64,000 nucleotides of DNA from positions 1-64,000 of the forward strand of contig JAOAPB010000067.1 of NCBI GenBank assembly GCA_025462645.1, given 5' to 3'. Below are positions 6,906-64,000 of this stretch, piece by piece; the stretch's first letter is position 1, and each line of letters starts with the position of its first letter. Source of the stretch: Edaphobacter sp. GTDB taxonomy: Bacteria; Acidobacteriota; Terriglobia; Terriglobales; Acidobacteriaceae. The notes beneath the pieces were generated by a model. That model saw only the letters and a program-made list of their open reading frames with translations. It was not told the origin of the DNA and ran no database searches. A program made the position numbers and the translations under genes.

Positions 6906-7157
6906 AATGGATCACCTCGGTTGTGCCGCCACGACTCCGGGCGGGTGGTCGGCAAAGCGGAAGGTTATCCGAAACGGGCTTCTGGGACTCTCTGTGTGTG
7001 TAAATCGCCAATGCACTCGGCGAAAAAAGGTATCGCTCAGTAGCGTTCAATAGCAATAGGTCTGGGCAAGGGCGTCCAGGTCGCTCTAAACGTACTATTT
7101 TTATCTTTGGCTTTTTGACCTTTGGCGTGGTGACCTCAGTTAGACGTCGGATAGGAT

Positions 7158-7622: not shown

Positions 7623-7659
7623 CTGGTGAGAGGTAGGACAAGTCGTTTAGGATGGCGGC

Positions 7660-13972: not shown

Positions 13973-15115
13973 ATGTCTGACAAACTGCATGAATGCGCGG
14001 TCGCCGGGGACCCGGGCGATCTTCTTCTGCTTCGCGTCCATCCCGCGCCCCTTCGTCCGTCCCGCACGGCCTTTCAGCGTGATCGGGAGCGGATTGTGCA
14101 GTCGCGTGCCTTCCGCCGTCTTGCGGGGAAGACGCAGGTCTTTACCAGCCGCGCCTCCGACCACTTTCGCAGCCGTCTGACTCACACGATGGAGGTTGCC
14201 CAGATCGCCCGCGCCGCTGCGGCGGAGCTGGGACTGAATGAGGATCTTGCTGAAACTCTGGCCCTTGTTCACGATATCGGCCATCCTCCTTTTGGCCATG
14301 CGGGCGAACGGGCTCTCGACCAGTGTCTCTGTCGCCATGGTCGCAACTTCGACCATAACCTCCACGCCCTGCGGATCGTAGAGCACTTCGAGCAGCGCTA
14401 TGCCGCCCACCGTGGTCTAAATCTGACACTCGGCGTGCGCGAAGGCATCATCAAGCACTCCCGCGACTACAGTGCCGACCAACACCCCGACCTGGCGGAA
14501 TATCTGCTCGACGAACGGCCACCGCTCGAGGCGCAGCTCATCGATCTTGCCGACGAGATCGCCTATCTCACGGCCGATCTAGACGATGGGGTTGAGTCCG
14601 GCCTGCTCGAGATTAGTCATATTTGCGAGAATGTCGATATCCTCAACCGCTGCTACCGTGCCGTCGAGCGGGAGCACGCCGGTCTCGAGGAGAAGTACCT
14701 CTTCAATGAAGCGCTCCAACTGATGCAGAACACGCTTACCGATGACCTGATCGAGAACACTCGCAAGAACACCCAGGCTATTGGCGCCGAGTCCCTCGCC
14801 GACATCCGAAGGCACACCTCTCGCCTCGCTCTGTTCTCCCCGCAGGCGGAGGCCGAACGCCTGCAGGAGAAGCGCTATCTCTACGACACGCTCTACACTT
14901 GCGATGCGCTCGAAAATGAGCATGACAAGGCCGAAGAGGTTGTGACCACGCTCTTTAACTACTGGATCAACGATCCTGAGGAGCTGCCGCAGGGTTATTT
15001 CGACGAAGTGCGGGAAGAGGGGCTCGCACGCGTCGTTGCCGACTATATCGCGGGCATGACCGACAGCTTCATCCTCCTGCAATACGCCCAGGTCAAACGC
15101 GCCGTCCGCCGCTAG
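13973..15115 (+). CDS. dgt: Deoxyguanosinetriphosphate triphosphohydrolase-like HD protein
   Basis: RDRERIVQSRAFRRLAGKTQVF; RSRLTHTMEVAQIAR; ALVHDIGHPPFGHAGE. Confidence 0.94.
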   Translation: MSDKLHECAVAGDPGDLLLLRVHPAPLRPSRTAFQRDRERIVQSRAFRRLAGKTQVFTSRASDHFRSRLTHTMEVAQIARAAAAELGLNEDLAETLALVHDIGHPPFGHAGERALDQCLCRHGRNFDHNLHALRIVEHFEQRYAAHRGLNLTLGVREGIIKHSRDYSADQHPDLAEYLLDERPPLEAQLIDLADEIAYLTADLDDGVESGLLEISHICENVDILNRCYRAVEREHAGLEEKYLFNEALQLMQNTLTDDLIENTRKNTQAIGAESLADIRRHTSRLALFSPQAEAERLQEKRYLYDTLYTCDALENEHDKAEEVVTTLFNYWINDPEELPQGYFDEVREEGLARVVADYIAGMTDSFILLQYAQVKRAVRR

Positions 15116-15190
15116 CACCCGTGGATACTGGACGAATTCGCGATCAAAGCGGTGCCCGTTGACACATCTGCGCTGTAGAATGCCAGCCAC

Positions 15191-15820
15191 ATGAGCTTTA
15201 CCGCGGGCAACATCACGGCACTTGTCGTCGCAGCCAGCTTCGCGGCCGGTCTGAATATCTACGCCACGGTGCTGACCCTCGGTATCCTGGCACGCACGCA
15301 ATGGGTCTCGTTGCCTCCAGGGCTTGAGTCGCTCGGCCACACCTGGGTGCTGGTCGTCTGCGGCATCATGTTCGCCATCGAGTTCGTCGCGGACAAGATT
15401 CCAGGCTTCGACATGATCTGGAACGCGCTTCACACCATCGTTCGCGTACCTATCGCCGGCCTGGTTGCTTACCACGCCAGCTCGCAGCTCTCGCCGCAGA
15501 TGCAGATTATGGCCACAGGGATCGGTGCAGGTATCGCGCTCGCAACACACGGCTCCAAGACTGCTGTTCGCGCCGCCGTGACGCCAAGCCCGGAGCCGGT
15601 GTCGAACATCGCGCTAAGTACTACGGAAGACGTCGTCGCCATCGGTCTTACGTGGTTCGCAACGCACCACCCTATCATCGCCGCATCTGCAGCTCTGATT
15701 CTTCTGACATCGGGAGTCGTCGTTGCCCGGGCCCTTCTAAAAGCTATCCAGCGGCCGTTGCGACGAATCTTCCGCCCTGATCTGGAGCGAGCGGAGGCGG
15801 CCAGAAAACCATCCGTCTAA
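15191..15820 (+). CDS. DUF4126-like membrane protein
   Basis: Hydrophobic protein with GLNIYATVLTLGILAR and IEFVADKIPGFDMIWNALHTIVRVPIAGLVAY. Confidence 0.75.
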   Translation: MSFTAGNITALVVAASFAAGLNIYATVLTLGILARTQWVSLPPGLESLGHTWVLVVCGIMFAIEFVADKIPGFDMIWNALHTIVRVPIAGLVAYHASSQLSPQMQIMATGIGAGIALATHGSKTAVRAAVTPSPEPVSNIALSTTEDVVAIGLTWFATHHPIIAASAALILLTSGVVVARALLKAIQRPLRRIFRPDLERAEAARKPSV

Positions 15821-15853
15821 CGGCTCGCCCTAGCGGGTGAAGCGCGGACGGCT

Positions 15854-16756
15854 TCACCGCTCCAGCGCCGCTCGATCCCAGTTTGCGAGTCTCGCGCCAG
15901 CCTCGTAGGTACTCTGCAGAAAGTCCATCACCGCATCGTCTGGCGAAGCTGCCGCGCGCACATCGTCATACTTCAGGATGAACTCTCCAAGTTTTTTATC
16001 GTAGTATGCGGCGTCAGGCTTTACCTTTTCGGCATCCAACGCCGCGGGCGAGGGGGCGGCGTAACAGTAGAAGGCCGCCGTGCCGAATCCACCATTTCCG
16101 GGCCAGAAGCCAGCGCTGATCACCTCGTGCGAGTAAGCCTCGCGAGTGATTCTATCGGCGTCGTCGCGCGGCGGCGCAGGTCGACCGGAGAAGCGCGTTA
16201 CCGCAAGGTCGAAGCTCCCCCAGAAGAAATGCACCGGACTCATCTTCCCGACAAAGCGTGAGGAGAACTGCCTGAAGAGATTGTCTGCAGAGGTCAATGT
16301 CCGCCAGAACCGGTGTGCGTACTCCGGGTCGTAGGAGTGATGCACCTCATCCTTCGCGAACGGAATCGGATCGCTGATCTCCACCGGCACCGGGTTGATT
16401 TCGACGGAGACACCGAGAGTGGAGAGGCATCTCTGATACTCCGCGTAAAAGCTCGCCACAGTCTGGGCGCGTAGCGGCACGGCGAGCTCACTTCCTGAGC
16501 TCAGGCGAAACCGCAGGTCATGACTTACGAAGTCGAACTCGATCTCAAGGAGATCGCCCTGATAGGGCATCGCTGAGGTAGTCAGTCCGCGTGCGCTTAC
16601 GTAGAGAGGAACGTTCCACCAGTGGTTCAACAGCGGAGTCAATTCCAGGCGCGTCTTCCCCACAATCTGCGTCCACATGTGCAGCGTCGCAGCCGTGTCC
16701 TTCCACTTATCCCAGGGAAGCTCAGGCCAACTGTGCGATGGTGCGGTCTTTGTCAT
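15854..16756 (-). CDS. DUF5996-like protein
   Basis: WPELPWDKWKDTAATLHMWTQIVGKTRLELTPLLNHWWNVPLYVSARGLTTSAMPY; MSPVHFFWGSFDLAVTRFSGRPAP. Confidence 0.8.
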   Translation of the reverse strand: MTKTAPSHSWPELPWDKWKDTAATLHMWTQIVGKTRLELTPLLNHWWNVPLYVSARGLTTSAMPYQGDLLEIEFDFVSHDLRFRLSSGSELAVPLRAQTVASFYAEYQRCLSTLGVSVEINPVPVEISDPIPFAKDEVHHSYDPEYAHRFWRTLTSADNLFRQFSSRFVGKMSPVHFFWGSFDLAVTRFSGRPAPPRDDADRITREAYSHEVISAGFWPGNGGFGTAAFYCYAAPSPAALDAEKVKPDAAYYDKKLGEFILKYDDVRAAASPDDAVMDFLQSTYEAGARLANWDRAALER

Positions 16757-16839
16757 TACCAGGGGCTCCTATAAGCGATCGAGTGTCTTCGTTGAATGAA
16801 CTTTACTCCAGTCCCACAGGTAAAGACATGTTGAAAAGA

Positions 16840-18108
16840 CTATCGTGACACAGCGCGGACTAGTGATACTTTGGCCGCATCGACGCTACGCCATGCTACG
16901 TATGCATCTCCGTCTGGCGCGAGGCTCAATGTGGGGTAGCGGTCTCCGGCGTCGTCCGCAGGTACGCGAGACACTGCGGAGAGGTGTCCGCGTGTATCGA
17001 TGCGGAAGATAAACGGCGTCACCTCTTCCCACCTGCCTGTCTGCGATGGGAGGCGCCCGGAGAACGCGATGGCGATCGTTCCGTCGTCTCTGGAGGCAAG
17101 GAAGGGATGGTTCGCGCTCTGTATGCCGCCGCTGACGACGATCTCACGAGAAAAACTTCTACCGCCATCGCGAGACGCGGCCAGACGGATCCCGGGTTGT
17201 TCTCCCGCGGCCGTGTACCAGGAGACGATCAGCTTCTCCTTTTGAAGAGCTACGACGGGCCCGGACTCCGGGCAGCCGAAGATCTTCCATCGGTCTGCCG
17301 CGACACGAACCGGTTCGCCGAAGTGTTCTCCAGCATCAGTGGAAGTAGCCACGGCCACGTCTCTTTCGTTGTCGCCGTAGACATGACGGTACGCGACATA
17401 GACCCTGCCATCGCTCGAAATTGCAATAGAGGGGCGACAGCACGGGCACGCCAGTGTGGCAACCTTGACGTTGCTATGGAAGGTAACTCCGCGGTCCGTC
17501 GATCGAGCAAGGTATACGTTGAAGGTGCCGGTGGCTGCGGAGGTGTTATCTCGCCCATCGAGCCATACGGCATAGACGTCACCGTTTGGCGCAACCGCGA
17601 GCGACGCAAATCCCGAGTAGCTTTTGTCCGTGGCCGGCTTATCCGTAACGAGTGCGGAGTCAGGAGCCTTCGAATCCATACCGCTCGAACGAGCCACCCG
17701 CAGTTGTGTGCCGGTAGTGTCGTTCTTCTCCTGCCACAACGCGAAGGCGTACATGCCCCGCGCTATAAGTTGCGGCGCGTTCTCTGCCGATGTTGTAACG
17801 ACAGCTCCCGGAGAACTCAATGCTGTGGGAGACATCCAGTGCTCACCTCCATCGTGCGACATGCGTAGGGTTAGTGCTGGAACGCTATCGTTCTCTACGG
17901 AAAGAAGGTAGAGACCCCCTGTAACCGTAGCGGCAACGATGGGGCGCTTACCCCCGACCTGTAAAACGCGAGGGTGCGGCTCGAACACGAACGCCTGTTC
18001 TCCGGTTTGCACAAGTGTCTGAGAGCGTCGCCAAAGCAGAAAGCCTGTCACCAGCAGGAGGGCGATCAGCAGCGAACCGGCAATGATACGAATAGATCTT
18101 CGATTCAT
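16840..18108 (-). CDS. Secreted sialidase/BNR-repeat-like protein
   Basis: N-terminal TM/signal; repeated SxDGGxxW-type motifs (MSHDGGEHW, STDRGVTFHSN, STDAGEHFG, SRDGGRSFS). Confidence 0.75.
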   Translation of the reverse strand: MNRRSIRIIAGSLLIALLLVTGFLLWRRSQTLVQTGEQAFVFEPHPRVLQVGGKRPIVAATVTGGLYLLSVENDSVPALTLRMSHDGGEHWMSPTALSSPGAVVTTSAENAPQLIARGMYAFALWQEKNDTTGTQLRVARSSGMDSKAPDSALVTDKPATDKSYSGFASLAVAPNGDVYAVWLDGRDNTSAATGTFNVYLARSTDRGVTFHSNVKVATLACPCCRPSIAISSDGRVYVAYRHVYGDNERDVAVATSTDAGEHFGEPVRVAADRWKIFGCPESGPVVALQKEKLIVSWYTAAGEQPGIRLAASRDGGRSFSREIVVSGGIQSANHPFLASRDDGTIAIAFSGRLPSQTGRWEEVTPFIFRIDTRGHLSAVSRVPADDAGDRYPTLSLAPDGDAYVAWRSVDAAKVSLVRAVSR

Positions 18109-32674: not shown

Positions 32675-32761
32675 GCCGGGATGGCGGAACTGGCAGACGC
32701 AGCGGACTCAAAATCCGCCGGAGGCAACTCCATGGGGGTTCGATTCCCCCTCCCGGCACCA
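32675..32761 (+). tRNA. tRNA-Leu (anticodon CAA)
   Basis: GCCGGGA ... gcgga-CTCAAAA-tccgc ... GGTTCGATTCC ... TCCCGGCACCA; acceptor pairing complete, encoded CCA, class II variable arm. Confidence 0.96.
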
Positions 32762-49962: not shown

Positions 49963-52734
49963 ATGCTGACCATCTCCAAGCCGCTCAGTTCCGGCCAGGC
50001 ACAGAGTTACCACAAGCTGGAGTTCACGTCGGAGACGCAGAACTATTACAAGCAGGGCGACGCCGTGAGAGGCGAGTGGCAAGGCCAACTTGCCGCTCGT
50101 CTCGGCTTGTCAGACGAGGTGTCACCGCTCGAATTCTCTCGCCTGGCAGAAGGCAAGAATCCCACGACGGAAGAGCAGATGGTCAAACACCGAGCTGCGA
50201 TGGAGTACAAGAACCCGGATGGCACGACGACCAAGGCCGTCGAACACCGGGCCGGTTGGGACGCGACCTTCTCCGCTCCGAAGTCTGTCTCTCTGACCGC
50301 CTTGGTGGGAGGCGATGATCGTGTGCGGGAGGCCCATCGCGCCGCAGTCACGACCGCTTTGGACGAGTTGGAGCGGTACACCCAAGCGCGGATCGGTGGC
50401 AACAACCCCGCAGAGACCACCGGCAAGTTCATCGCCGCCAAGTTCGAGCACGACACGGCGCGCCCGGTCGATGGCTACGCCGCCCCGCAGCTCCATACCC
50501 ATGCCGTAATCTTCAACGTGACGGAGCGGGCGAACGGTTCAACCCGCGCGTTGCAGGAGCGCGGCTTTTTCGAGAGCCAGCAGTATGCGACCGCCGTGTA
50601 TCAGTCGGCACTTACCTACCAGCTCCGCACCTTGGGGTACGAGATCGAATCCGGCAGGAGCGGCGCTCCGGAGATCAAAGGATACTCGCAGGAATATCTT
50701 GACGCCTCAAGCCCTCGCTCCAGGCAGATCAAGGAGCAACTCGAAAAAACTGGATACAGCGGCCCAGAGGCCGCACAAATTGCGGCTCATTCCACCAGAG
50801 AACGTAAGCAGTCGCGTACTCCGCAAGGGGTTCTTGCCGCACACAAAGAGATGGCCGCCAGCTTCGGAAATCAGCCCCGGCAAGTTGTCGCAGCCGCCCT
50901 CGCGCGGACGGAGAAACGGGAGCGGCAGCCGGAACAGCGACCTCACGCGAAGGAGGCGGTCACCTTCGCTCGCGACAGCATCTTCGAGCGGGAAGCAGTG
51001 GCAGATGAACGAGCGATCCTCCGCGACGCACTTCGTCGCGGCATGGGAGACGCCACGTACCGGGACATCCGCGCCGAGTTCGATAGGCGACAGGAAGCGG
51101 GGGATTTCCGCTCCGTTCAGGGCACCAAGCACAGTTCAGGTCGTAGCTTCACGACACCCGAAATGATCGCTTCCGAACGTGCGAACATCCGATACGTTCT
51201 GGAAGGCCGCAATGCTGTCGAGCCGATCATGGATGCGGAGCGGGCCAGAGAACAGGCCGGCACGCGATCCTTTCTGAACGACTCCCAGCGTCGAGTCATC
51301 GAGGAAGTCCTAAACTCATCCGACCGTATCCATGGCCTGCAGGGACTCGCCGGAACCGGCAAGACCACCACCCTCCAGACGATCCGCGAAGGCGCTGAAG
51401 CAAACGGATACGTCGTCGAAGGATTCGCGCCCACTTCCAAAGCGGCAGGGCAGCTTCGCGAGGCAGGAATAGAAGCTGCTACTCTCCAGAGCTTCCTCGC
51501 CCGTGGTCAGAATCACCCGGCCGCCGATCCTGCCAACCGGCACCTCTACATGCTGGATGAGTCCAGCCTTGCCAGCACTAAACAGATGCGCTCGTTTCTC
51601 GGCAAACTCAAAGTCGAAGACCGAGTCCTGGTTATCGGAGATACCCGCCAGCATCAAGGCGTGGACGCCGGGCGACCGTTCCAGCAGATGCAAGAGGCCG
51701 GGATGCAGACCTCACAGCTCGACAAGATCGTGCGCCAAAAAAACCCTGAGCTGCTACAGGCAGTCCAGCATCTTGCCCACAACGAGACGACAAAAGGTAT
51801 AGCAATGTTGGCCGAGCAGGGCAGAATTACCGAGATCGCAAACAGCAATAACCGCATAGCCGCAATCGCCAGGGATTATGCTTCACAACCCGAGAATACG
51901 ATCATCGTCTCCCCGGACAATCGAAGCCGTCAGGAAATTAATGAGGCTGTTCGCGTCGAGCTACGGAAGGCCGGTTTACTCGCTGTGGACGGTGAGGTCT
52001 TCCGAACTTTGACGCACCGCTCCGATATGACCGGGGCAGACCGGTCATGGGCTGCGCGCTACAAAGTCGGTGACGTGCTGCAGTACACCACCGGGAGCAA
52101 AGCAGAAGGCATTGAGCGCAACAGTTTCTCCGTTGTGCGTTCTATCGATGCCCGTGCAAACAGTATCGCTGTGGAGGTTGAGAACGGATCGACCGTGACG
52201 TATGACCCGCGACGATTGCGAGGTGTCAACGTTTTCCGCGAGATCGAACGTGAGTTCGCCGTCGGTGACCGGCTCCAGTGGACCGCTCCCAACAAAGAAC
52301 TTGGCGTGGCGAATCGAGATCTCGGAACGGTTGTCGGTCTCGAAGAAGGCAAGATGACCCTGCGCATCGACGGCAAGACCGCCCGTCTAGTGACATTTGA
52401 CGCCGCTGAATTTCGACAGTTCGATCACGGATATGCGGTCACGTCCCACAGCTCTCAAGGGCTGACTGCCGGCCGCGTCTTGGCGAATTTCGATACCGAT
52501 TCCAACCGCAATCTCATCAACACCCGGCTCGCCTATGTAGCAATCTCCCGCGCATCGAACGACGCACATATCTACACAAATGATGCGGAAAGACTGGGAG
52601 AGAAACTTGCATCTTCCATATCTAAGACGAGTGCTCTGGAGGTGCATTCCCCGACCGCGAGTCTGCCAAAACGAACGCCAGAGATTCGGCGAATACAAGA
52701 CATCAGCATCGAAATTCCGGGTCTGAGTCTATAG
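49963..52734 (+). CDS. TrwC/TraI-type (MobF) conjugative relaxase-helicase
   Basis: N-terminal relaxase with PQLHTHAVIFN (HxH); helicase motifs GLAGTGKTTTLQTI, RHLYMLDESSLASTKQM. Confidence 0.95.
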   Translation: MLTISKPLSSGQAQSYHKLEFTSETQNYYKQGDAVRGEWQGQLAARLGLSDEVSPLEFSRLAEGKNPTTEEQMVKHRAAMEYKNPDGTTTKAVEHRAGWDATFSAPKSVSLTALVGGDDRVREAHRAAVTTALDELERYTQARIGGNNPAETTGKFIAAKFEHDTARPVDGYAAPQLHTHAVIFNVTERANGSTRALQERGFFESQQYATAVYQSALTYQLRTLGYEIESGRSGAPEIKGYSQEYLDASSPRSRQIKEQLEKTGYSGPEAAQIAAHSTRERKQSRTPQGVLAAHKEMAASFGNQPRQVVAAALARTEKRERQPEQRPHAKEAVTFARDSIFEREAVADERAILRDALRRGMGDATYRDIRAEFDRRQEAGDFRSVQGTKHSSGRSFTTPEMIASERANIRYVLEGRNAVEPIMDAERAREQAGTRSFLNDSQRRVIEEVLNSSDRIHGLQGLAGTGKTTTLQTIREGAEANGYVVEGFAPTSKAAGQLREAGIEAATLQSFLARGQNHPAADPANRHLYMLDESSLASTKQMRSFLGKLKVEDRVLVIGDTRQHQGVDAGRPFQQMQEAGMQTSQLDKIVRQKNPELLQAVQHLAHNETTKGIAMLAEQGRITEIANSNNRIAAIARDYASQPENTIIVSPDNRSRQEINEAVRVELRKAGLLAVDGEVFRTLTHRSDMTGADRSWAARYKVGDVLQYTTGSKAEGIERNSFSVVRSIDARANSIAVEVENGSTVTYDPRRLRGVNVFREIEREFAVGDRLQWTAPNKELGVANRDLGTVVGLEEGKMTLRIDGKTARLVTFDAAEFRQFDHGYAVTSHSSQGLTAGRVLANFDTDSNRNLINTRLAYVAISRASNDAHIYTNDAERLGEKLASSISKTSALEVHSPTASLPKRTPEIRRIQDISIEIPGLSL

Positions 52735-52792: not shown

Positions 52793-53710
52793 TCAGCGTC
52801 TCTTCGGCTTGCGACCTTCAATTCGCGTCTGTGCTCCTATGCCTAACAGAGCCTCTATTTGACCGGCGGCGCGAAGCACTTGGTAAACATCCAAGTTGGC
52901 GACCGTCGTGTGCTCTTGGACGTAGGTTGCGAGGTATTTTTCGGATTCGGAACTCACCCCGTTTCGAGCAGAAACCAGATATGCGACCGACTCCGCTTCA
53001 AGCTCCTTCTGGCGATGGTCTACCTGTGACCTTTCTGGAATTTTGAGAAGGGAGTCAGCTCCGAGATGGCCTAGAAAAAGATGACCCAACTCATGCGCGA
53101 TCGTGACGAACTGAGTGGCAGGAGCATGGTTGCGATTGACATGCACTTCGTAAACGCTCGCGACCTTGGGATCGGTAGACGGATATATCAACCGGATACT
53201 TCCTGCTGATCCATCCCCTGCGTCTATCATTTGACTTTCTATGGATTTCGAGCCCATCCGTCGACAAAATGAGCCAATGCGTTCCGCGTCAATTGGACCT
53301 TGAGCAAAGAAGCTAGACACGTCCTTTGGCAGGGGCTTACCCTCGGTGTCTTCCGAATCGTAGACTAGCGCAACGGGGCCGAATGGCCAGAGAATTAGCA
53401 ACGGACGCGCTCCTGGCTTCGGCCTGCGGTCGAAGCGCTCCTTCCAATCCACGGCAGAAGCGGCATACATGAGTCCCGGCTTCTGCACCTGGAGGAGCAT
53501 CGCATTGAAAGGCGCAAAGTTACGCAGGCGAACAACAAAATCGAGGAGTTCCTTGTAGTCCTTCGTCTGCGTGTAGAGACGGGAATCAGTCAGCAGCTTG
53601 TCGAGCAGAGATCGTGCTTCATGTTCCTCTGACAGCTGCGCCTCCGGGACGGCCTGCGACTCACCTTTGGCTCCGGACAGTTTCTTTATAATCGATTGAA
53701 AAATTGGCAC
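52793..53710 (-). CDS. ImmA/IrrE-type zinc metallopeptidase with ArdC-like N-terminal region
   Basis: TQFVTIAHELGHLFLGHLG (HExxH, codons at 53081-53095); N-terminal RLRNFAPFNAMLLQVQKPGLMYAASAVDWKERF...GARPLLILWPFGPVALVYDSEDTEGKPLP. Confidence 0.85.
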   Translation of the reverse strand: MPIFQSIIKKLSGAKGESQAVPEAQLSEEHEARSLLDKLLTDSRLYTQTKDYKELLDFVVRLRNFAPFNAMLLQVQKPGLMYAASAVDWKERFDRRPKPGARPLLILWPFGPVALVYDSEDTEGKPLPKDVSSFFAQGPIDAERIGSFCRRMGSKSIESQMIDAGDGSAGSIRLIYPSTDPKVASVYEVHVNRNHAPATQFVTIAHELGHLFLGHLGADSLLKIPERSQVDHRQKELEAESVAYLVSARNGVSSESEKYLATYVQEHTTVANLDVYQVLRAAGQIEALLGIGAQTRIEGRKPKRR

Positions 53711-53711
53711 G

Positions 53712-54521
53712 TCAGACCTCCCCGGTGCCGGGGCCTTCGGGAAGGAACCCGTACTTGGTGCGGTGCCTTTTGAGGTTTTGCCTGTGTAAATCAGTCAATC
53801 CGATGATTGCGGAGACTAAATCAATTCGCAACGCGAGTGAAGCCGCATCGCTCAAACTGTCCGAGCGGAGAACAACCCCGACATCCGAGAAGCTGACAAG
53901 GCCGCTGTCGAAGGCACAGTCCCAGAGAGCAGAAAGTAGAAGCCCATTGTGTACATCCAAGCGCAGTTCGTCCGATTCGCACTCGGCCCAGGGGACGATA
54001 TGCGAAGCACGAAGAAGAGCCGGGTCTGTAATGCCAGTCAGCGGGCAGCGGCCATTCCAGTATTCGAGCAAGGCGCCGCGGAAGATGTCCTGGCCGATGC
54101 GCACGATCGTGAGTCGTTCGGCTTCTGTGCTGCTTGGAAGTGCGGTTGTCCGCTTCTGGAAGACGGCCAAAGGTGCGTCGGGCAGACTGACGCCGAGCTT
54201 ATAGGCGCGGTCGAGAGCATCGTACAGGCCGGAGAGTGTGGCAAACCCGTAGGATGCGAGGCCAGGTATTTGTACCAGCCCATTGGCGACAACGGACCGA
54301 GGAATGGAAAGTTCGTGCGCCACACCAGGATGGGTCACGGAGAGAAGCCAAATATTCTGGAGCGGGTCACGTGCGATCCACACCTCGCCGCGCGCGGTGG
54401 TGGAGCTGTAGCCGAGCCAGCCTCCTTGCCGTCCCAGTTCGACGCGAAAGCCGTTCTCGTACGTAGCTTTGTGTGCCTCCTCGCGGAGAACGAAACCGGG
54501 AGAATTTTCAATTTGAATCAC
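53712..54521 (-). CDS. HNH endonuclease-domain protein (HNH_2-like)
   Basis: CPLTGITDPALLRASHIVPWAECESDELRLDVHNGLLLSALWDCAFDSGLVSF. Confidence 0.88.
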   Translation of the reverse strand: MIQIENSPGFVLREEAHKATYENGFRVELGRQGGWLGYSSTTARGEVWIARDPLQNIWLLSVTHPGVAHELSIPRSVVANGLVQIPGLASYGFATLSGLYDALDRAYKLGVSLPDAPLAVFQKRTTALPSSTEAERLTIVRIGQDIFRGALLEYWNGRCPLTGITDPALLRASHIVPWAECESDELRLDVHNGLLLSALWDCAFDSGLVSFSDVGVVLRSDSLSDAASLALRIDLVSAIIGLTDLHRQNLKRHRTKYGFLPEGPGTGEV

Positions 54522-54522
54522 G

Positions 54523-56475
54523 TCAGAGGTCCACTTTCAAAAGCCGCTGCTCTGCAGGAGCGCCTTTCACTTCGAGGCAGAGCCAAGGTCGGGTTTGAAA
54601 AGCTTTCGGCGGTGCAGTCGTAGTTGTGAGTATGTATTGGAATAGAGGAGCTGAAGTAGATTTCTCTAGTTTTTCGGCGAACAGAAAGAGGCGCTTGTAG
54701 ATCTCTTCGCTTAGATCCGCTTCCCTCGGACTGTCATGAATCAATACCCCTGGAAAGTACAGAGATTTCTCCATTGACATCGCTAAGACTGCAAGATCGA
54801 AGGCAACCACCTTAAGCGATTCAATCGCTACGGTAGATCGATAGCCTCCAAGCTCTACATTTAACTTAAGGCCATTACCATCGAGCTTTGCCGATCCTCT
54901 AATGTCACCCGGGACCAATTCACGTAAAACGATGTCAAACCAGTTCGACAGACTCAGGATGATCGTAAAACTGGCGTCCCGGTGTTTAGCAATGCTGAGA
55001 CGAGTTTTCTCCAACGCGTCTTCATTCTTGCTTGCCTCTGACTGAGCCTCATCATACTCGGCAAGAAGTGCTTCGTATTCTTCCACGTCCTCCGACAGCT
55101 TTTGACTCTCTCGAACCGACTTGGAAGAGACATCCATAGATTGCTCAATCTTGCGAAGGGATGCGTCTAATTCGTCAAATAGATTCTGAGCATCGGCAAC
55201 CTCAGCGTTTAGAGCAGGCTCTTCTTGGCGCAACGACGATATTTCCTGCTCCAATGCCCGAAGCAGCTCTCGCTTACGGGAAATCTCCATTTGCAAGCTG
55301 TGAAGATCACACGTTTCCGTGGAGATGCCGCATCCCTCCGCAAGAGCCTTATCGATACCAACTTTGCAGATGGGACAAACAGGATTGTTCTCATTGAGAA
55401 GACGAGCGTGCGCTTCTGGCAATTCAGCGGCGATTGCGGGTCTAATCTTTTGCTTTTCCTCAATCCTTCCGTTTAGCAGCTTAAGCTCGCCTTGCAGCCG
55501 GTTGAATTCATTCTTTGCCACATCTCTCTCGCGTCGTGCCTTTTCAACATCCACCGAGCTAACGCGTTCAGGCAGATTGAGAGCCTTCGAGAACTGCTCT
55601 GTGGCGGCTTTCTTCAATAGCACCACATCGACAGGCGTTCCAGAGAGCGCTTCCCCATCCCTCCGAAGCTTCGTGTAGACATTGACACGTGCCCTTTCAA
55701 GCTGCCATTTGAGACGGTCCAAGTCTGACTTCTTCCCGGTTACGTTCTTGCTTTGGAGTTCCTCCTGCTGCTGCGCTGCCACCTCATTTATTGAAAGAGC
55801 GCCAAGTATGGCGCGAACGACGAGCAGCTTGTCTTCCCCAGACCGATTTACCACGGGAGAAGACGAATTACTTTCGGGCGATCTCCAATTCAAGACATGA
55901 CTGAACCGGCACTCCTGGTCCCTGGTGATCCATGCAAGCAAAGCCTTCCACGCAGATTCTGAACCGATACTGCTCGGCATCAGCTTGGGAGAATCGCCCA
56001 GGATGCTCTGAGTAATTGCGTCAACGAGCGGAGCCATGCCAGTTGCCTGATGTTCTCCTGAGAACAAGTCATCTAGCGAGCCGCCCTCCTGAACCACATC
56101 GCGGCGTCTATGGCCAAGCGACCGAAGAACGATCCAAACTTTGCTGTCGAGGATGATCTCTGCTCCCACACAACCCTTTGGAAAGACTTCTCCGATTCGA
56201 TGGCGCAGATCATCGGATGCAAACGTGTCTTCTCCCAAACAGAAGCGAAACAGGCGGCAAAACGTCGTCTTGCCGCCTCCATGGCCGATCGGTGAGTCTT
56301 CCGTCTGTGAATCAGGCGACCAGACGATATTGAACCCAGGGCGCATTGGGATATCCCGGAGAACCACGTTCGGCTCTCGCCAAATCACAATACGTTTTAC
56401 CCAAAGCTTCGGGCCGGTACGGCCTGCCTCCGGGTTGAGCGAGAACGTCGGACGCGGAAACAATTCAGGCGGCAT
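54523..56475 (-). CDS. SMC/Rad50-like ATPase (DUF2326/ABC-type) with CPxC hook
   Basis: Walker A GHGGGKTTFCRLFRFCLG; coiled coil; VCPICK hook at 55366-55377; Walker B-like FPGVLIHDSPREADLSEEIYKRLF. Confidence 0.85.
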   Translation of the reverse strand: MPPELFPRPTFSLNPEAGRTGPKLWVKRIVIWREPNVVLRDIPMRPGFNIVWSPDSQTEDSPIGHGGGKTTFCRLFRFCLGEDTFASDDLRHRIGEVFPKGCVGAEIILDSKVWIVLRSLGHRRRDVVQEGGSLDDLFSGEHQATGMAPLVDAITQSILGDSPKLMPSSIGSESAWKALLAWITRDQECRFSHVLNWRSPESNSSSPVVNRSGEDKLLVVRAILGALSINEVAAQQQEELQSKNVTGKKSDLDRLKWQLERARVNVYTKLRRDGEALSGTPVDVVLLKKAATEQFSKALNLPERVSSVDVEKARRERDVAKNEFNRLQGELKLLNGRIEEKQKIRPAIAAELPEAHARLLNENNPVCPICKVGIDKALAEGCGISTETCDLHSLQMEISRKRELLRALEQEISSLRQEEPALNAEVADAQNLFDELDASLRKIEQSMDVSSKSVRESQKLSEDVEEYEALLAEYDEAQSEASKNEDALEKTRLSIAKHRDASFTIILSLSNWFDIVLRELVPGDIRGSAKLDGNGLKLNVELGGYRSTVAIESLKVVAFDLAVLAMSMEKSLYFPGVLIHDSPREADLSEEIYKRLFLFAEKLEKSTSAPLFQYILTTTTAPPKAFQTRPWLCLEVKGAPAEQRLLKVDL

Positions 56476-59400
56476 GTGCTCTTACCCAGGTCTGGAGGTC
56501 TACGGGAAGTTCGGCTATTGATGTCTCAATCTCCATACCTTCCATGGCTTTCATTACAAAGCCCGCGCGCCCATCGGCCCAGCCTTCCGTTAAGAAATCT
56601 TGCACTATAGAACCAGGGGCCCAAGTATCGTTTGTAGCGTCTTCCAAAAGTGCGTGCATACCTCGCAGCTGAGTATAAGCATCGCGCCACTCGATGTTGC
56701 CGCGAGGTATAAATTGGATCACGTTTGCTGCCCCAGAAGCGCGGGCGCTACTTCCGATCAGGCGTTGCCAAGTTTTTAGATCTGTGCCGGAGAGTCGAGA
56801 GGTAATTAGTTGGGGATTCAAAGCGTAGAGCGCAGCCAGGCGAACTCGTGCTGCCGATGTTGGCCCTGACAGCTGCTTGAGAATTGCTGCAAGCTGAAGC
56901 TGAACTGAAATGCTGTTGTAGTTTGGCATAGCCCAGACATCGTTGGGCAAAGTGGAAGGGTCGGCAAACGGCGAGTGTTCGACAGAAGTGCTCTCGATGC
57001 CTTCGAACAGCGGACCAGCCCCCAGAAGGAAATTCTGGTCGGAGAGGTTCCGTTGGCCAATGGTCATGGATTGCACGGCACTCTGCGGCGGAGCGACGTA
57101 TGGCTGCGGGCAGGACAGTTCGCCACGCTCCATTCGGTCCCAAGCGTCGAGTACAAGGCGCCGGGTGCGGTACTCCTTGTGGAGCTTCAACTCCTTTTCC
57201 TTGAACACGCGGAAAGTCTCGCTTGGGTAGTCGGCACCCATCACATCGGCAGGGTCGAGGATGTAGCGAAGCTCGTCGAGGGTGAGGCCGTAGGCGTGCG
57301 CATACCAAGCGTCGATTTCGGCACGAAGGGTCGCTCTAAGCACGTCGTCCCATGCGAATGGTGGACCGTCATAGCCGAGATCATGCGCGAATGGTGACAT
57401 CGAATGGCTTGTGTAGGTCAATTCCAAGACCCGAGGAACCAAGAAATCTAAAGCCGTCTGATCGAAATAGGAAGGCGGTAGCACGGGCAACTGTTCCATG
57501 ATGAAAAATGTGAGATGAGTTCCACCGATCTTCTGCCGTGCCACATAGTCGCAAATTAAGGAACACAGAGTGCCGAGTAGAGCAGCAGCTAGAGGGGCCG
57601 AGACCGTGTCCTCTAAGAGGATGAGGGACAGATTGTGTCCAACTGCAGTCGCAGGCAGAGCACACGCGACAATAGTTCGCTCGTTTGTTGCATTTGTTAT
57701 GTCTCGAAAGCCTAGAAACCATCCAAACTGATATCCGCCGGCTGAGGCAGCTGCCTGTACTGTTCGCTCATGTACCCAGTAGCGTGGATTTATCTCCAAG
57801 CTTGAATCACTCTTCTCTTGCACTGTGAGATCTCGGCTTTCGTCGTCCTCATATGTTGCCCATCGGTGATCGAATTGGTGAATCAGCTTGGCCTCATACA
57901 ACGGAAGATGATATCCAGGGCTATCGTCTCCTTCAATCAGGCTTTCATAGATGATCCACTGGTTCCCGGACACTTCTGCATTGGACGCTTTCTCGAATTC
58001 AGCGCGGCTTCCGAAGAGTTCAGAATCGGTGGTCATATTGAACAATCCCTGGCGAAAGCGAAACTTCCAGACATCCTTGCCGGAACTTTCACGGATCAGT
58101 ATGGGTACACGTTCGTATATTTTCTCAGTGAGCAAGGCATCCGCCTTGGAACGAAATACCGGAGAGGTCTGAGTCCGTGGGTTGATGAGTGCCACTTGAG
58201 ATCCGGAGAATCTGAAGTGACGCTCTTGTTCGTCTAGCTGCTCCACCCTCCGCATGAAAAACGCAAAATCTGTGGTGCTGTTGTTTGTTGGAGCCGTAAT
58301 GAAGAGGCAGAATTGGAAGGCGTGATGAACCGCGGGAAAAATGAATTCTTCGTTTTCAAAGGAAAAGACTTCGGTCAGCCGCTCTCGATTCACCATGTGG
58401 CTGAAGAAAGCTGCGGTGCCGGCATCTGTAACGATGCCCCTTGGAAAGATTCCTCCCGAGTGACCCTTTGCTCCTCCCAGGTTCAAAAAAAGTTCAGCGA
58501 ATAGTGCATAAGTATTGGTTTTTCCTTTTGCAGTTAGTTCAAAACGACCGGAACCGCGAACGAATTCGTTGCCTGCTTCAAATCTTCGCTTCTCGACCTC
58601 GAATGCTGCGAATACAGCTGGCTGAGTTTCTCGAAGTGCGGCGATGGCTTTTTTTCGCGCAGCGCCTGACATTTCCGCAATCTCCGGTGCCCGCTTAGCA
58701 AAATACTCTTCCTCTCCAAGTTGCATGACCTCCCATGGAGGATTGCCGAGTACCGCGTCGAATCCTCCTGAGGCGAGAATGTCGGGGAATTCCAGCGCCC
58801 AATGAAACGCACGCGCAGTGGAGGCAAGTTCGCGAGCAGTTCCCAGTCGCGGACCGTACACGGTGCCTGCGCTCATAGCGGTATGTACATCCGCCGTTGT
58901 CGGGATCAAGCTATTGTCTTCGTGACGTGCGGTTTCTTGTGTCTTGAGCGACAAAAATGCGGCGATGTACAGATCAGCGGCCTGGGCAATATTCTGCAGG
59001 CGGGGGTCGTGAGACGCCGAGTCGAAACGTTCCCGCTTGGCATTGATTTCCGCAACAGTATCCTCCGGCAGTTGGCGTACCGCGCGCAGCGACTGTGCCA
59101 GCTTTGGCAGTGCGAGCGTGTCAGACGTCCCGGACAGCCTCATGCGTATCTGGCCCTTGATCTCGTCTCGATTCTTTTTGCTGAAGTCTTTCGCAACCGT
59201 CTTGTCGTCGCCGATGAGCGGCTTATAAGCCGCGTCGGGAATCCCTTTGCTCAGGACATCGATGGTGAAAATGCCGAGAAGGGAGTCTCCGAGCCGGATG
59301 TTGGCATCGAGGAATCCGAGCGGTTTGCCGGGTTCCACGGTTTCGATCCATAGGGCAACTTTCGTGAGTTCGACGGCCATGGGATTGCGATCAACACCGT

Positions 59401-61033
59401 GGATGCAGGAACGAACAACATCGCGCAAGGCGGCGAGACGCTGCTGCTCGGTATGAATGTCGCCGTGGCGGATGCGCACAACCCGCTTGGCTACGCGACG
59501 CGCAGCGGCGAGAAGGAAATGGCCGGAACCGCAGGCAGGATCGATGACCGTGACTCCAAGCAGACCACGGACAGGGTCTTCCGACTCGCTTTCGATCCGG
59601 TCGAGAACGGGGTCGAGTGCGCTATCGAGCAGTACCTGTACGAGAGAGTCCGGCGTGTAGTAGCTGCCGCTTGTCTTACGGGCGTTGCCCTTAGTCTGTG
59701 CACCTTCCGCGAATTTAAACTCCCGACCGTCGCTGCTGAGGCGCGGTGTAAGTTCGAGCAGGCTTTCGTACACGGAGCCGAGCTCTTCGGTCTCCATGTC
59801 CCGCCAGTTGACCGGCATCAAAAGCCCTTCGTCCCGAAGCCACGCCAGGCGGAAGATGGCCTCCATTAAGAAGCGATTAGATATGTGAATACGATCCAAC
59901 TTAGGTGTTGCCGAGGCAGCGAAGATACCGCCGAGCGCCGGGAGACCGAGCCGTGGTTCTCCGTTCGCTAGGGCACCGAAGGTAACGCGGAGACCCGACC
60001 AACGGTCGTGGAAGTTATCCCATCCACTCCGTCTAATCGCTCTGTCGCGCAAAGCTCCCAGCGAGTAGCCTTGGGCATACAGCTTGCGCTGCTCTTCGGA
60101 AGCATTCGGGATGTGCAGTAGGTTACGATCCTCCGCAGCGAGCAAGAAGATCAACTTATAGACAAGTCGCAACAGTTGGCGAAAGTATTCGTCGATTGGC
60201 CAAGTGCCTTCCCGCAGCCGCAAACTTAACTCTGTGTTCGCGGGATTCGTCAGGAAGCCGGTGCCAAGTGCAAGCAGGGCGGCTTCCACGCCATCGCGAA
60301 GGCGATCGCGGGCTGCCAAGCCTTCCTTGCTGCCGGACTCGCGCCAGCGTTCCAGCGGCGAGTCCACGGGCAGCGCACCGAGACGACCAAAACGGCTTAC
60401 GTGAAGCACGAGCCAAAGTGCCGAGAAGCCCGCGTAGTCTTCGGCCTCAAAGATCTGACGAAGGTCAGCTTCGAGATAGGCCGGGCGGGTCAGGCTTTCG
60501 TTGTCGCGCAGCAGGCGTAGTGATTCACCATTCGTACAGAGTCCCCATACGGCTCCTTCGTCCGCGTTCAACCAATCCTGCAAAGCTGAAGCAGCGGAGC
60601 GGCGGCGATCCTGCGAAAGTGAATTGCTGGCGTGATCGAGACCGTCGGATGGTGGGACGACAACAACTGGGACACGACCACCTAGGGCTTCTAGCGTTAC
60701 CGGGAAACGCCTGTCGTTGCGGAACTTCGGAGTCTTGACAGCCTGAATGTCGGAAAAGCCAAAGACTACGCGAAGAAGCTGCTCAGTGAACTCGATCGTT
60801 TTGTGACGTGCAGGGGTATTTGAGGCATGAAGATCACGGAAGAGAGCCTGTCCGATGCGGAAATAACGGGCGGTTTCGTCTCGAAGCGTCAGACCCTTCG
60901 GGATACTGTAGTCGGCATCGGTTTGCTCCTCAGCCTTGCGTTCAGCGACCGCCGCGAACTTCGCGGAAGACAGGAGCGATCCTTCAAGAGTGATAGCGTC
61001 GAAACTCAGGGTGGACTTGCGAACACGCGCCAT
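56465..61033 (-). CDS. Large Eco57I/PglX/DrmMI-like N6-adenine DNA methyltransferase
   Basis: Motif I VTVIDPACGSGHFLLAAARRVA; motif IV GFDAVLGNPPWEVMQLGEEEYF; 1522 aa with extended C-terminal region. Confidence 0.92.
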   Translation of the reverse strand: MARVRKSTLSFDAITLEGSLLSSAKFAAVAERKAEEQTDADYSIPKGLTLRDETARYFRIGQALFRDLHASNTPARHKTIEFTEQLLRVVFGFSDIQAVKTPKFRNDRRFPVTLEALGGRVPVVVVPPSDGLDHASNSLSQDRRRSAASALQDWLNADEGAVWGLCTNGESLRLLRDNESLTRPAYLEADLRQIFEAEDYAGFSALWLVLHVSRFGRLGALPVDSPLERWRESGSKEGLAARDRLRDGVEAALLALGTGFLTNPANTELSLRLREGTWPIDEYFRQLLRLVYKLIFLLAAEDRNLLHIPNASEEQRKLYAQGYSLGALRDRAIRRSGWDNFHDRWSGLRVTFGALANGEPRLGLPALGGIFAASATPKLDRIHISNRFLMEAIFRLAWLRDEGLLMPVNWRDMETEELGSVYESLLELTPRLSSDGREFKFAEGAQTKGNARKTSGSYYTPDSLVQVLLDSALDPVLDRIESESEDPVRGLLGVTVIDPACGSGHFLLAAARRVAKRVVRIRHGDIHTEQQRLAALRDVVRSCIHGVDRNPMAVELTKVALWIETVEPGKPLGFLDANIRLGDSLLGIFTIDVLSKGIPDAAYKPLIGDDKTVAKDFSKKNRDEIKGQIRMRLSGTSDTLALPKLAQSLRAVRQLPEDTVAEINAKRERFDSASHDPRLQNIAQAADLYIAAFLSLKTQETARHEDNSLIPTTADVHTAMSAGTVYGPRLGTARELASTARAFHWALEFPDILASGGFDAVLGNPPWEVMQLGEEEYFAKRAPEIAEMSGAARKKAIAALRETQPAVFAAFEVEKRRFEAGNEFVRGSGRFELTAKGKTNTYALFAELFLNLGGAKGHSGGIFPRGIVTDAGTAAFFSHMVNRERLTEVFSFENEEFIFPAVHHAFQFCLFITAPTNNSTTDFAFFMRRVEQLDEQERHFRFSGSQVALINPRTQTSPVFRSKADALLTEKIYERVPILIRESSGKDVWKFRFRQGLFNMTTDSELFGSRAEFEKASNAEVSGNQWIIYESLIEGDDSPGYHLPLYEAKLIHQFDHRWATYEDDESRDLTVQEKSDSSLEINPRYWVHERTVQAAASAGGYQFGWFLGFRDITNATNERTIVACALPATAVGHNLSLILLEDTVSAPLAAALLGTLCSLICDYVARQKIGGTHLTFFIMEQLPVLPPSYFDQTALDFLVPRVLELTYTSHSMSPFAHDLGYDGPPFAWDDVLRATLRAEIDAWYAHAYGLTLDELRYILDPADVMGADYPSETFRVFKEKELKLHKEYRTRRLVLDAWDRMERGELSCPQPYVAPPQSAVQSMTIGQRNLSDQNFLLGAGPLFEGIESTSVEHSPFADPSTLPNDVWAMPNYNSISVQLQLAAILKQLSGPTSAARVRLAALYALNPQLITSRLSGTDLKTWQRLIGSSARASGAANVIQFIPRGNIEWRDAYTQLRGMHALLEDATNDTWAPGSIVQDFLTEGWADGRAGFVMKAMEGMEIETSIAELPVDLQTWVRAHAA

Positions 61034-61035
61034 TC

Positions 61036-63807
61036 CTAGACGCCTCCCGGAATGAGCACGTACACACCGAGGACGTCTGGAGGGAGAACTGGCTCTACAG
61101 TGACGCGGGGTGCCCCAGGCATGGACGCGGTAGCCGACCGTACTCGCTCATGGTCAGCAAGCAAGATCTTCGCTCGTTGAGCGGCATAGGCGGCGATTGG
61201 ACCGCTCTCGCCTCGCATTGCTTCGATACGTGTAAGAGCCTGCCGAACGATGCGGTCCTGAGCAACTACAGCCAGGTTTTCGGTTGCAGGTGAACGGAGT
61301 AATTCGAACGCCTCATCTCCAACGTGGGTCGGAGCGTCTGCATTCCCGGTGAAGGCGAGGACGCCGGCTTCTTCGACCAGCAAGAGCTTTTCCTGACGAC
61401 CATGCACGAACAGTTTGAAACGGAGCCGCATGAGCAGAACAAAGGTTTGAGAAGACACGTCCTTGGTCGCCCAAACGCCGCAACGTCCAAGTGATCGCCC
61501 CGTGGTCTCACTTGGCTGCAGAGCGCTTTCAAGCAGGAAATCGGCCAGAGTTGAGGGAAGGGGGTGGCTGCGAACAACCACCTCGGCATTAGGGGGTGCA
61601 GGTTCCTGAAACGTGATCTTCAATGTTCCCTGTAGCCCGCGCGCAGCGAGTCGCTCTAAAACCGTTGGAGGCAAGGCTTCCAGATGCGCCAATTCGATTC
61701 CTCCGGTCAACGACTCAAGTCCGGCATTGAGCCGCCCCATAGCCCTAGCCAGAAAGCGCCGAACATCTTCAGGACCGCCCAGCAGGGTTTGCCAACGCTG
61801 CCATTCGGGGATCACTTCATCAGGACGAAGAGTGTTCTGGGCGAAAACTGCGCGTGAGCGACGCTCGCCCTCTTCGGCATCGCGCCAACGACGGTCAACT
61901 TCGTCCGTGTCCGCCGACAGTTCGATACCGAGGTCGAGGCGAAGTTGCTCAGAACGGCCTTTGCGAAGAAGCAAAGCGTTTAGAAGAGCACCCGCCACCG
62001 CTGACCGCTCTTCCGGTAGAGGTACTGTGACGCCGGTTGCTTTGCGGATGGCTTCGGCCTTGCGGAGCACAACCTGAAGAACCGCTCCGTCAATGGAACT
62101 GTCGGGAGAGTAAAGAAGCACAGATCGGACAACCTTTGATTGCCCAAAGCGATCTACGCGGCCTTCCCGTTGCTGATGCCGCGTCGGATTCCAAGAGAGG
62201 TCGTAATGCACAACGGAATCGAAGAGATGCTGGAGGTTGATACCCTCTGACAGGCAATCGGTCGCAACAAGGATGCGCTGGGGCGCGCTTCCCATAGACT
62301 CAACTCGTGCACGGCGGTCTTCGGGCGTCAGCAATCCTGTGACTGCTTCGACGCAAAGCTTGGGAAATGCCTTGCGAAGTCCAGCAGCGACATGTTCCGC
62401 CGTAGCGATGAAACGACAGAAGAGTATTGGGTTGGAGCCATCTTTGAGTAAGGGACGCAGGAGCTCTGTAATCGCATTGAGCTTTGGATCTGGAGCGGTC
62501 GTCAGAGCCTCCGCTTGTCGAACCAAAGCGGCCAGCGCTGGGTCATCAAGTACGACAGCGGCAGGCTCGACATCCAGTCCTTCGGCTTCGTCATCGTCGC
62601 AAAGCTGCTCTTCCAGAACCGCTACGTCGCTCAATCGCGTACGCAAAGCGCTATGGGCGGCGGCGGGCGAAGACCCGACACATCGCATGAGAGCAAGCGT
62701 GCTCCAGAATGCCATCCGCCTATTCCGCTTATCGCTGCCCGCGCCCTCTACGACACCGAGGCAGTAGTCCAGGACATTGTCATGAAAAGCCTGATGCGCA
62801 GGATTGAACCGGTAGGGCTTTTCTGTTGTGTCGTGGCGAGGGGGAAAGGAGCGATCTTCGCCCCAATCCTTGCTTCTAATATCGATTCGACGCCGCTGAA
62901 CAAAATGCCGCGCCAATCTACGACGAGAAGCTTCGTCTTCCAGCGAACTGCTGCTGAATTGCGGATCGAGCAACGACAAAAGGCGGCTGAATGCCTGCTC
63001 ATCACCGCTGTGAGGTGTTGCCGTCAGAAGGAGCAGGTGTCGGTTCGGATCTTCCGCAATTTTCCGAAGCAACTCAAATCGCTGCTGCCGCCCGAGGTGG
63101 GCGCCAACGCAGGAGTGTGCCTCGTCAACGATCACAAACGGAGGACATGCCCGTCCGAAGCTGTCGCGTCGCTTTTCGGCCTTAATGTAGTCCAAGCTAA
63201 CGACGGTGAATGGGTTCGCCTCGAAGAGAGTCTGTGACTGTGCTAATCCCCGTTCAAGCCGAGCTGCCGAGGCTGCTGTGACTGCCACAGCGTCAAGATC
63301 AAACTTGCTGTGCAGTTCTCCAGTCCATTGTTCAACCAGATGTGGCGGACACAAGACAGCGAACCGGTCAATTTCTCCACGATCGACGAGCTCACGCAGA
63401 ATGAGGCCCGCCTCTATGGTCTTACCGATACCTACGTCGTCCGCAATCATCAGCCGAACCGTTTGCTGGCGGAGCGCCATGAGTAACGGCACCAACTGGT
63501 ATGCTCGGGGATCGAACGCTACCCGAGCAGCCGAGCGGAATGGTCCCGCCCCTCGGCGAAGTGACAACCGCAATGCTTCGCCTAGCAACAAAGCTGCGTC
63601 TTGTGTTGCCCGGTCCTCCGCTTGCGGAAGGTCAAATTGAGCCGGAAGGACAGGATCTGCTTCGAGCATGGGGTCGATGAGTTGAACATCCAACTCGCTG
63701 CCCGTGAGCGGACGAAGGGAAAGAAGTGACTTGTCAACGGAAGGCAATGCGACCCATTCACGCCCCCGCGCCCGAACGAGGTCCCCTGGCGAAAATGTAA
63801 CGATCAC
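61036..63807 (-). CDS. SNF2/RapA-like DEAH helicase (DrmD-like)
   Basis: MIADDVGIGKTIEAGLILREL; FVIVDEAHSC; LLLTATPHSGDEQAF; ILVATDCLSEGINL; NPTRHQQREGRVDRFGQ. Confidence 0.92.
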   Translation of the reverse strand: MIVTFSPGDLVRARGREWVALPSVDKSLLSLRPLTGSELDVQLIDPMLEADPVLPAQFDLPQAEDRATQDAALLLGEALRLSLRRGAGPFRSAARVAFDPRAYQLVPLLMALRQQTVRLMIADDVGIGKTIEAGLILRELVDRGEIDRFAVLCPPHLVEQWTGELHSKFDLDAVAVTAASAARLERGLAQSQTLFEANPFTVVSLDYIKAEKRRDSFGRACPPFVIVDEAHSCVGAHLGRQQRFELLRKIAEDPNRHLLLLTATPHSGDEQAFSRLLSLLDPQFSSSSLEDEASRRRLARHFVQRRRIDIRSKDWGEDRSFPPRHDTTEKPYRFNPAHQAFHDNVLDYCLGVVEGAGSDKRNRRMAFWSTLALMRCVGSSPAAAHSALRTRLSDVAVLEEQLCDDDEAEGLDVEPAAVVLDDPALAALVRQAEALTTAPDPKLNAITELLRPLLKDGSNPILFCRFIATAEHVAAGLRKAFPKLCVEAVTGLLTPEDRRARVESMGSAPQRILVATDCLSEGINLQHLFDSVVHYDLSWNPTRHQQREGRVDRFGQSKVVRSVLLYSPDSSIDGAVLQVVLRKAEAIRKATGVTVPLPEERSAVAGALLNALLLRKGRSEQLRLDLGIELSADTDEVDRRWRDAEEGERRSRAVFAQNTLRPDEVIPEWQRWQTLLGGPEDVRRFLARAMGRLNAGLESLTGGIELAHLEALPPTVLERLAARGLQGTLKITFQEPAPPNAEVVVRSHPLPSTLADFLLESALQPSETTGRSLGRCGVWATKDVSSQTFVLLMRLRFKLFVHGRQEKLLLVEEAGVLAFTGNADAPTHVGDEAFELLRSPATENLAVVAQDRIVRQALTRIEAMRGESGPIAAYAAQRAKILLADHERVRSATASMPGAPRVTVEPVLPPDVLGVYVLIPGGV

Positions 63808-64000
63808 GCGGACACTCCTAGAGCTTCCAAGAGTTCCCTTGGGGCCTCAGTTTGGGGGCTGGCCGGCAGAACAACAACGTCAAAGGCCATATCGCTGAGC
63901 ACCTTAGCCGTCTCGCTATTGGGTGTTTCGGTAGTTGCGACCACACGATGTTCTTTCCAAACCAGCGAAAACTCAGAACCTTCAGCAAGGAGTGGCGTGC
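63804..64000 (-). CDS. C-terminus of an upstream operon gene, truncated by the window edge
   Basis: Open minus-strand frame ...EFSLVWKEHRVVATTETPNSETAKVLSDMAFDVVVLPASPQTEAPRELLEALGVSA*, stop overlaps the helicase GTG start by 4 nt. Confidence 0.7.
   Translation of the reverse strand, partial: TPLLAEGSEFSLVWKEHRVVATTETPNSETAKVLSDMAFDVVVLPASPQTEAPRELLEALGVSA

Follow-up and report, generated by a model that had tools for sequence, protein, structure and literature searches.

The right-hand end of a 64,000-nucleotide stretch of the genome of an Edaphobacter sp. (assembly GCA_025462645.1, contig JAOAPB010000067.1, positions 1 to 64,000; hereafter the window) carries a minus-strand operon of helicase, methyltransferase, ATPase and nuclease genes, which we classify as a variant of ARMADA Type I. 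The contig runs on past the window, to 99,939 bases. The order of genes in the operon is YprA helicase, SNF2 helicase, adenine methyltransferase (MTase), SMC ATPase, HNH nuclease and peptidase:

contig 63804-68972 (window part 63804..64000), minus strand: YprA/DruE-type DEAD helicase with MZB (DUF1998), 1722 amino acids, the first gene of the operon
61036..63807, minus strand: RapA/BrxHII/DrmD-type SNF2 helicase, 923 amino acids, with SNF2 and Helicase_C domains, GIGKT at 126 and DEAH at 228
56465..61033, minus strand: PglX/DrmMI-like adenine MTase (Eco57I/N6_Mtase), 1522 amino acids, with motif I at 498 and NPPW at 764
54523..56475, minus strand: LmuB-like SMC/Rad50-type ATPase, 650 amino acids, with Walker A GHGGGKT at 64, the CPIC zinc hook at 367 and Walker B HDSPREADL at 580
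53712..54521, minus strand: HNH_2 endonuclease (HNH_2 match 1.1e-11), 269 amino acids, with H174, N192 and the D201/FD motif conserved
52793..53710, minus strand: ArdC/M78-like metallopeptidase (M78-type peptidase match 1.9e-06), 305 amino acids, with HELGH

The five minus-strand open reading frames (ORFs) from SNF2 helicase to peptidase, on which an original prediction drawn from the window was based, are all open at these coordinates and are packed as it described for translationally coupled genes. Gaps of 1 nucleotide separate the peptidase from the HNH gene and the HNH from the SMC gene, the SMC and MTase genes overlap by 11 nucleotides, a gap of 2 nucleotides lies between MTase and SNF2, and the SNF2 and YprA genes overlap by 4 nucleotides. 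The true start of the operon lies outside the window, because a 64-amino-acid ORF cut by the right edge belongs to the YprA gene that overlaps the SNF2 gene, and is the C-terminus of its 1722-amino-acid product. The prediction had supposed that the equivalents of drmA and drmB were replaced, which proved mistaken or incomplete, since a YprA-type helicase, equivalent to DrmA and DrmB fused, is present just outside the window. To the right, where drmA/B/C-like genes were to be looked for, the operon has no separate copies of them, but it does have the YprA gene (contig 63804-68972) that had been missed; the observation was correct but stopped short at the edge of the window.

The YprA protein carries Walker A at 110, DELH at 231 and QRSGRAGR at 1033. 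The SNF2 helicase shows relatedness to RapA, DrmD, BrxHII and a DpdE profile, and the MTase, with its motif I and NPPW, is of the PglX/DrmMI/type IIG kind. Single-gene matches in PADLOC 2.0.0 were DpdE (6.4e-200), DruE (2.6e-93, DruE1 being the top profile of the YprA protein), DrmD (1.5e-74) and DrmMI (1.5e-67), the last two agreeing with the helicase-MTase pair related to class 1 DISARM that had been recognized from the window. The best single matches come from different systems (DruE, DpdE, DrmMI, LmuB, HNH), and the whole set fits no known system among the PADLOC 2.0.0 profiles, an outcome in keeping with the prediction. The protein P0004 had no sequence match in the PDB.

The core of the operon is already known. 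ARMADA is a class related to DISARM, in whose Type I YprA comes first, followed by a BrxHII-like helicase and then a PglX-like MTase, and the YprA of Types I and II has a C-terminal Vsr-type nuclease that is predicted to be active, according to the main text and legends of the preprint (Bell et al., bioRxiv 2025, PMC12458937). Judged by gene order, similarity and homologous YprA C-termini, the core here fits Type I, which means that the operon cannot count as entirely new. An SMC ATPase or an HNH gene in ARMADA is unmentioned in that main text and its legends (HNH occurs once, in a reference title), and the supplements or figures may note such a branch. The gene set that was put forward as unnamed thus has a core that had been named, to which the SMC and HNH genes are the part those sections leave unmentioned. 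We speak of a variant rather than of a plain member because the active Vsr-type nuclease is missing both from the window and from all loci with the HNH gene.

The arrangement recurs widely. Searching plasmids with the SMC protein yielded eight relatives of full length, seven of which lie with YprA, SNF2, MTase and SMC in the order of the window, five of these seven having HNH as well. Scanning about 85,000 species genomes with an SMC alignment turned up 214 relatives, and loci were fetched for the 80 best. In the resulting set of 89 SMC loci, window included, all five genes (YprA, SNF2, MTase, SMC, HNH) are adjacent and in order in 46; in 10 more HNH lies farther along, 11 have the first four genes without HNH, and much of the remainder is interrupted by contig ends. 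Relatives with this order and similar overlaps, on 7 plasmids as well as in dozens of genomes, place the arrangement beyond chance. The set occurs on chromosomes and unrelated plasmids, next to transposition or toxin-antitoxin genes, in several phyla, and SNF2, MTase, SMC and HNH retain their catalytic motifs in nearly all loci. Viral contigs gave no match in the YprA search and one in the SMC search, and phage records gave none. DUF262-like (GmrSD-like) genes were observed between SMC and HNH, or after SMC, in four loci (L046, L073, L074, L012).

The predicted conservation of gene order therefore holds for the SMC and HNH genes but not for the peptidase, which is outside the conserved set. 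By spacing the peptidase is in the transcription unit of the operon; among the fetched loci L086 alone has a relative of it, and the plasmid homologue nearest to it is an orphan adjoining a Tn3 transposase. The peptidase can be ruled out as a core part on these grounds and, as it is not conserved with the system, we regard it as cargo.

The main finding concerns the C-terminus of YprA. In loci without HNH this region has an intact Vsr-type motif, for example PDFYYEPRVWIFCDGTPHD, following the pattern PDF.Y..DG.PH, while in the window and all HNH loci the motif is missing. Where the C-terminus is readable, 63 loci combine HNH with a dead Vsr domain and none combines HNH with an intact one; without HNH, the motif is intact in 17 of 22 loci and dead in 5. 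Most of these five are truncated or damaged: the sequence stops before the HNH position in L016 and L101, an IS21 element follows the MTase in L099, and YprA is truncated in L100. Profile comparison shows homology between dead and active C-termini (97.6%, P 4e-12); what the dead kind has lost, by deletion, is the DG.PH loop. Two of three active C-termini tested match DUF559 near the Pfam cut-off, and, in the predicted fold, helices and strands of the dead domain follow an order like that of PD-(D/E)xK nucleases. The proposal that the HNH protein is the likely effector gains from these results, its catalytic residues being conserved and the Vsr motif dead in 63 of 63 HNH loci, which points to HNH as the candidate nuclease.

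It is the HNH gene, not the SMC gene, that tracks the dead Vsr domain, since HNH directly follows the MTase, with SMC absent, in L096, L097 and L102; the same three loci show that the link between HNH and the operon does not depend on SMC. That SMC brought about the loss of Vsr is ruled out, as it is found with both Vsr states. A second sample consisted of 16 YprA relatives from the phylum of the window, several in loci that are short or lack other core genes; the Vsr motif is intact in 15 and degenerate in one (L147), and neither HNH nor SMC was found in any. One of the 15, L146, is ruled out as Vsr-dead by an intact motif further inside the protein, and its locus is ARMADA II-like. There we also observed that a RelE-UvrD-like gene separates YprA from SNF2 and that an apparent PHP-domain/ABC-ATPase fusion lies downstream of the MTase (5901-8000 and 14749-17433).

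The SMC protein has the CPIC zinc hook of the predicted Rad50/SMC-like ATPase, matches SMC and LmuB profiles and, weakly, DUF2326. Its AlphaFold2 model (mean predicted local distance difference test score, pLDDT, 85.7) best matches Lamassu LmuB (9uxh, E 2e-16; 9hqu) and a YydD model (9a6c). In most loci the start of SMC overlaps the stop of the MTase by about 11-17 nucleotides, yet L010 has SMC and HNH without the helicase/MTase core, and the family also appears with other restriction genes. It follows hsdR-hsdM-hsdS in L044 (confirmed with Pfam) and apparently, by sequence, in L026, L070 and L065, with a DUF5655/NucS_C-type protein of 319-322 amino acids after SMC in L044 and L065. In L094, an IMG/VR viral contig, it comes after a type III-like mod/res set made up of an SNF2 helicase, an N6_N4 MTase and a type III Res-like gene. 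The hsdRMS loci possibly represent an unnamed add-on to type I restriction, and the distribution suggests that this SMC family is a portable partner of ATP-driven restriction systems.

The operon is cargo of a 61.6-kb integrative and conjugative element (ICE), as the flanking repeats, the integrase and the conjugation genes between the repeats attest:

32729..32761, plus strand: left 33-base-pair direct repeat, the 3' end of tRNA-Leu(CAA); right copy at contig 94308-94340
32778..33941, plus strand: tyrosine integrase of the ICE, adjoining the tRNA-Leu gene
49963..52734, plus strand: TrwC/MobF relaxase of the ICE, convergent with the operon
contig 69432-70346, plus strand: ArdC-N antirestriction gene on the ICE, upstream of the YprA gene and divergent from the operon

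Between the repeats lie VirB4, VirB6, VirB11, a TrwB-type coupling protein and the TrwC relaxase, in line with the cargo position beside a conjugative relaxase read from the window. Fragments of tRNA-Leu 3' ends are frequent at such sites in many genomes of the same genus, which suggests that this tRNA end is an integration hotspot; same-genus genomes within a 396-genome sample had no matching YprA helicase. The ICE also carries a protein of 875 amino acids with a PLDc_2 domain (contig 75270-77897, minus strand), possibly another defence gene.

Comparison with known systems defines what is particular to the operon. It shares with ARMADA Type I the order of YprA-type, BrxHII/RapA-like and PglX-like genes, its YprA being closest to DruE, but the Vsr catalytic motif is lost and the SMC ATPase and HNH genes are added. 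ARMADA Type II has the order SNF2, MTase and YprA, then RelE-UvrD (ArmD), whereas here the order is another and the operon has no ArmD. Class 1 DISARM likewise pairs a DrmD-like helicase with a DrmMI-like MTase; here, however, helicase and DUF1998 are in one DruE-type protein, the order differs, and the operon has no separate drmA or drmB and no phospholipase-D (DrmC-type nuclease) gene. As in Lamassu, the SMC ATPase is LmuB-like in sequence profile and fold and a nuclease gene follows it, but here SMC is embedded in a methylase-helicase operon. LmuA and LmuC gave no profile match; effectors of the LmuA kind are variable, HNH among them (PMC10586767). Druantia shares the YprA/DruE-type helicase with its C-terminal nuclease remnant, but an MTase and an SNF2 helicase are present here, and of Druantia proteins only the DruE-like one, with no DruH or DruABCD/DruMFG partners. 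Hma and the DUF499 BREX-related systems also combine helicase, MTase and ATPase, but their ATPase is a DUF499 protein (HmaC in Hma) and that of the operon is SMC/Rad50-type, which rules out Hma as a match (PMC12839542). Dpd, to which the strong DpdE match pointed, is an improbable match, since the genes alongside are not those of Dpd and the DpdE profile appears to cover the SNF2 family of the window. No DpdA/7-deazaguanine genes occur among the annotated neighbours of the relatives, the genome of the window itself not having been profile-searched for them. Among Type I-like loci, we observed adjoining McrBC in Deinococcus L105 and Nocardioides L106, the latter a plasmid of Nocardioides sp. 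JS614 with DISARM drmA/drmB beside the ARMADA Type I-like genes and McrBC; McrBC beside a DISARM-like cassette was noted in the CoCoNuT paper (PMC11090510).

We consider it fairly probable that the operon is an anti-invader system and represents a distinct HNH branch of ARMADA Type I, in which cutting has moved to the HNH protein and SMC is an optional partner. Its defence function would follow by analogy from the tested ARMADA Type II, which, in the account of the preprint's main text, protects E. coli without abortive death, requires both helicases and the NPPW motif of the MTase, and is abolished by deletion of any gene (PMC12458937); the cutting role of HNH is proposed from sequence. The MTase would mark host DNA at a target adenine, and the SNF2 and YprA helicases would be loaded onto unmarked DNA of an invader and travel along it, perhaps via single-stranded DNA, which DruE of Druantia III engages (PMC13192584). 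In the ancestor, the Vsr-type nuclease at the end of YprA would have cut this DNA; in the HNH branch, its catalytic motif lost, the HNH protein of the operon would do so. The most likely role of the SMC ATPase, where present, would be to sense DNA ends or structures and to gate or boost the nuclease, as its LmuB-like fold and the analogy with Lamassu suggest (PMC10586767, PMC12904381). A broader version, which we hold tentatively and rate somewhat short of an even chance, is that a major branch of ARMADA I swapped Vsr for HNH once and took up a roaming LmuB-like SMC, which would act as a plug-in sensor of DNA structure in several restriction systems otherwise unrelated to one another, all methylation-based and ATP-driven: ARMADA and the type I and type III-like restriction-modification systems.

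Several points weigh against an HNH branch with a displaced cutting function. In YprA trees built without the Vsr region the HNH loci all fall in one clade, and HNH state changes once, Vsr state 1-2 times and SMC 7-10 times. The association of HNH and Vsr states is a single event retained over a deep clade and not repeated convergence; with one switch only, the pattern is not replicated evolution, and an independent-pairs test had no power. One of the loci with dead Vsr and no HNH, L108 (Chloroflexota), has a degenerate Vsr domain and appears genuine, and Foldseek with the dead C-terminal domain found no significant match and did not recognize it as a nuclease. The loci were sampled by similarity to the SMC and YprA proteins of the window, which biases the apparent frequency of the branch, and HNH could be an accessory with another role. 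A functional swap is nevertheless supported: every intact locus of the clade has HNH, with catalytic residues preserved, whereas the Vsr loop has been deleted.

Among the alternatives, it seems unlikely that two systems simply stand side by side, one a plain Type I core of ARMADA, the other a Lamassu-like module in which SMC and HNH act independently of that core. The LmuB-like SMC, the pairing of LmuB with varied nucleases, HNH included, in Lamassu (PMC10586767), the frequent gain and loss of SMC and its presence after hsdRMS and type III-like genes, and the one locus with SMC and HNH but no core would all suit such an arrangement; yet HNH follows the MTase directly in the three loci lacking SMC, LmuA and LmuC genes were not recognized, SMC overlaps the MTase in most loci, and the dead Vsr domain is tracked by HNH presence and not by SMC. 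We find it quite improbable that HNH is a regulatory or backup nuclease, and that what stops the DNA is the activity of the helicases or the remnant of the YprA C-terminal domain. A review gives the ARMADA restriction mechanism as unknown (PMC12904381), deletion of any ARMADA II gene is reported to abolish defence, and BREX-like loci often contain other accessory nucleases (PMC12839542), all of which this explanation accommodates, but it sits poorly with an HNH gene kept in all intact branch loci with its catalytic residues while the catalytic loop of Vsr is deleted. An incompletely read canonical DISARM, Dpd or Druantia locus, to which the single-gene PADLOC matches might point, is very improbable, given an MTase and two helicases in the ARMADA I order and a conserved neighbourhood in which no separate drmA/drmB/drmC, druH, druABCD or 7-deazaguanine genes recur. 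Finally, peptidase, HNH and SMC might serve the conjugative element in maintenance or anti-restriction rather than phage defence, as the position of the operon between relaxase and ArdC gene in the ICE would allow; we find this scarcely credible, since the five genes also lie on chromosomes and unrelated plasmids of several phyla beside transposition or toxin-antitoxin genes, and their methylase-helicase-nuclease logic is that of restriction.

What is new, then, is the HNH gene accompanying a dead Vsr domain in a widespread branch of ARMADA Type I, often with SMC, while the core class is known. How BREX, DISARM, ARMADA, MADS and Druantia carry out restriction is given as unknown in a 2026 review (PMC12904381). 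The HNH branch offers a natural test of the cutting component, as the loci of a single lineage invariably retain a separate HNH gene alongside a built-in nuclease that looks dead. Additionally, the occurrence of one SMC ATPase family beside several restriction systems suggests a portable add-on that may link Lamassu-type DNA sensing with classical restriction-modification.

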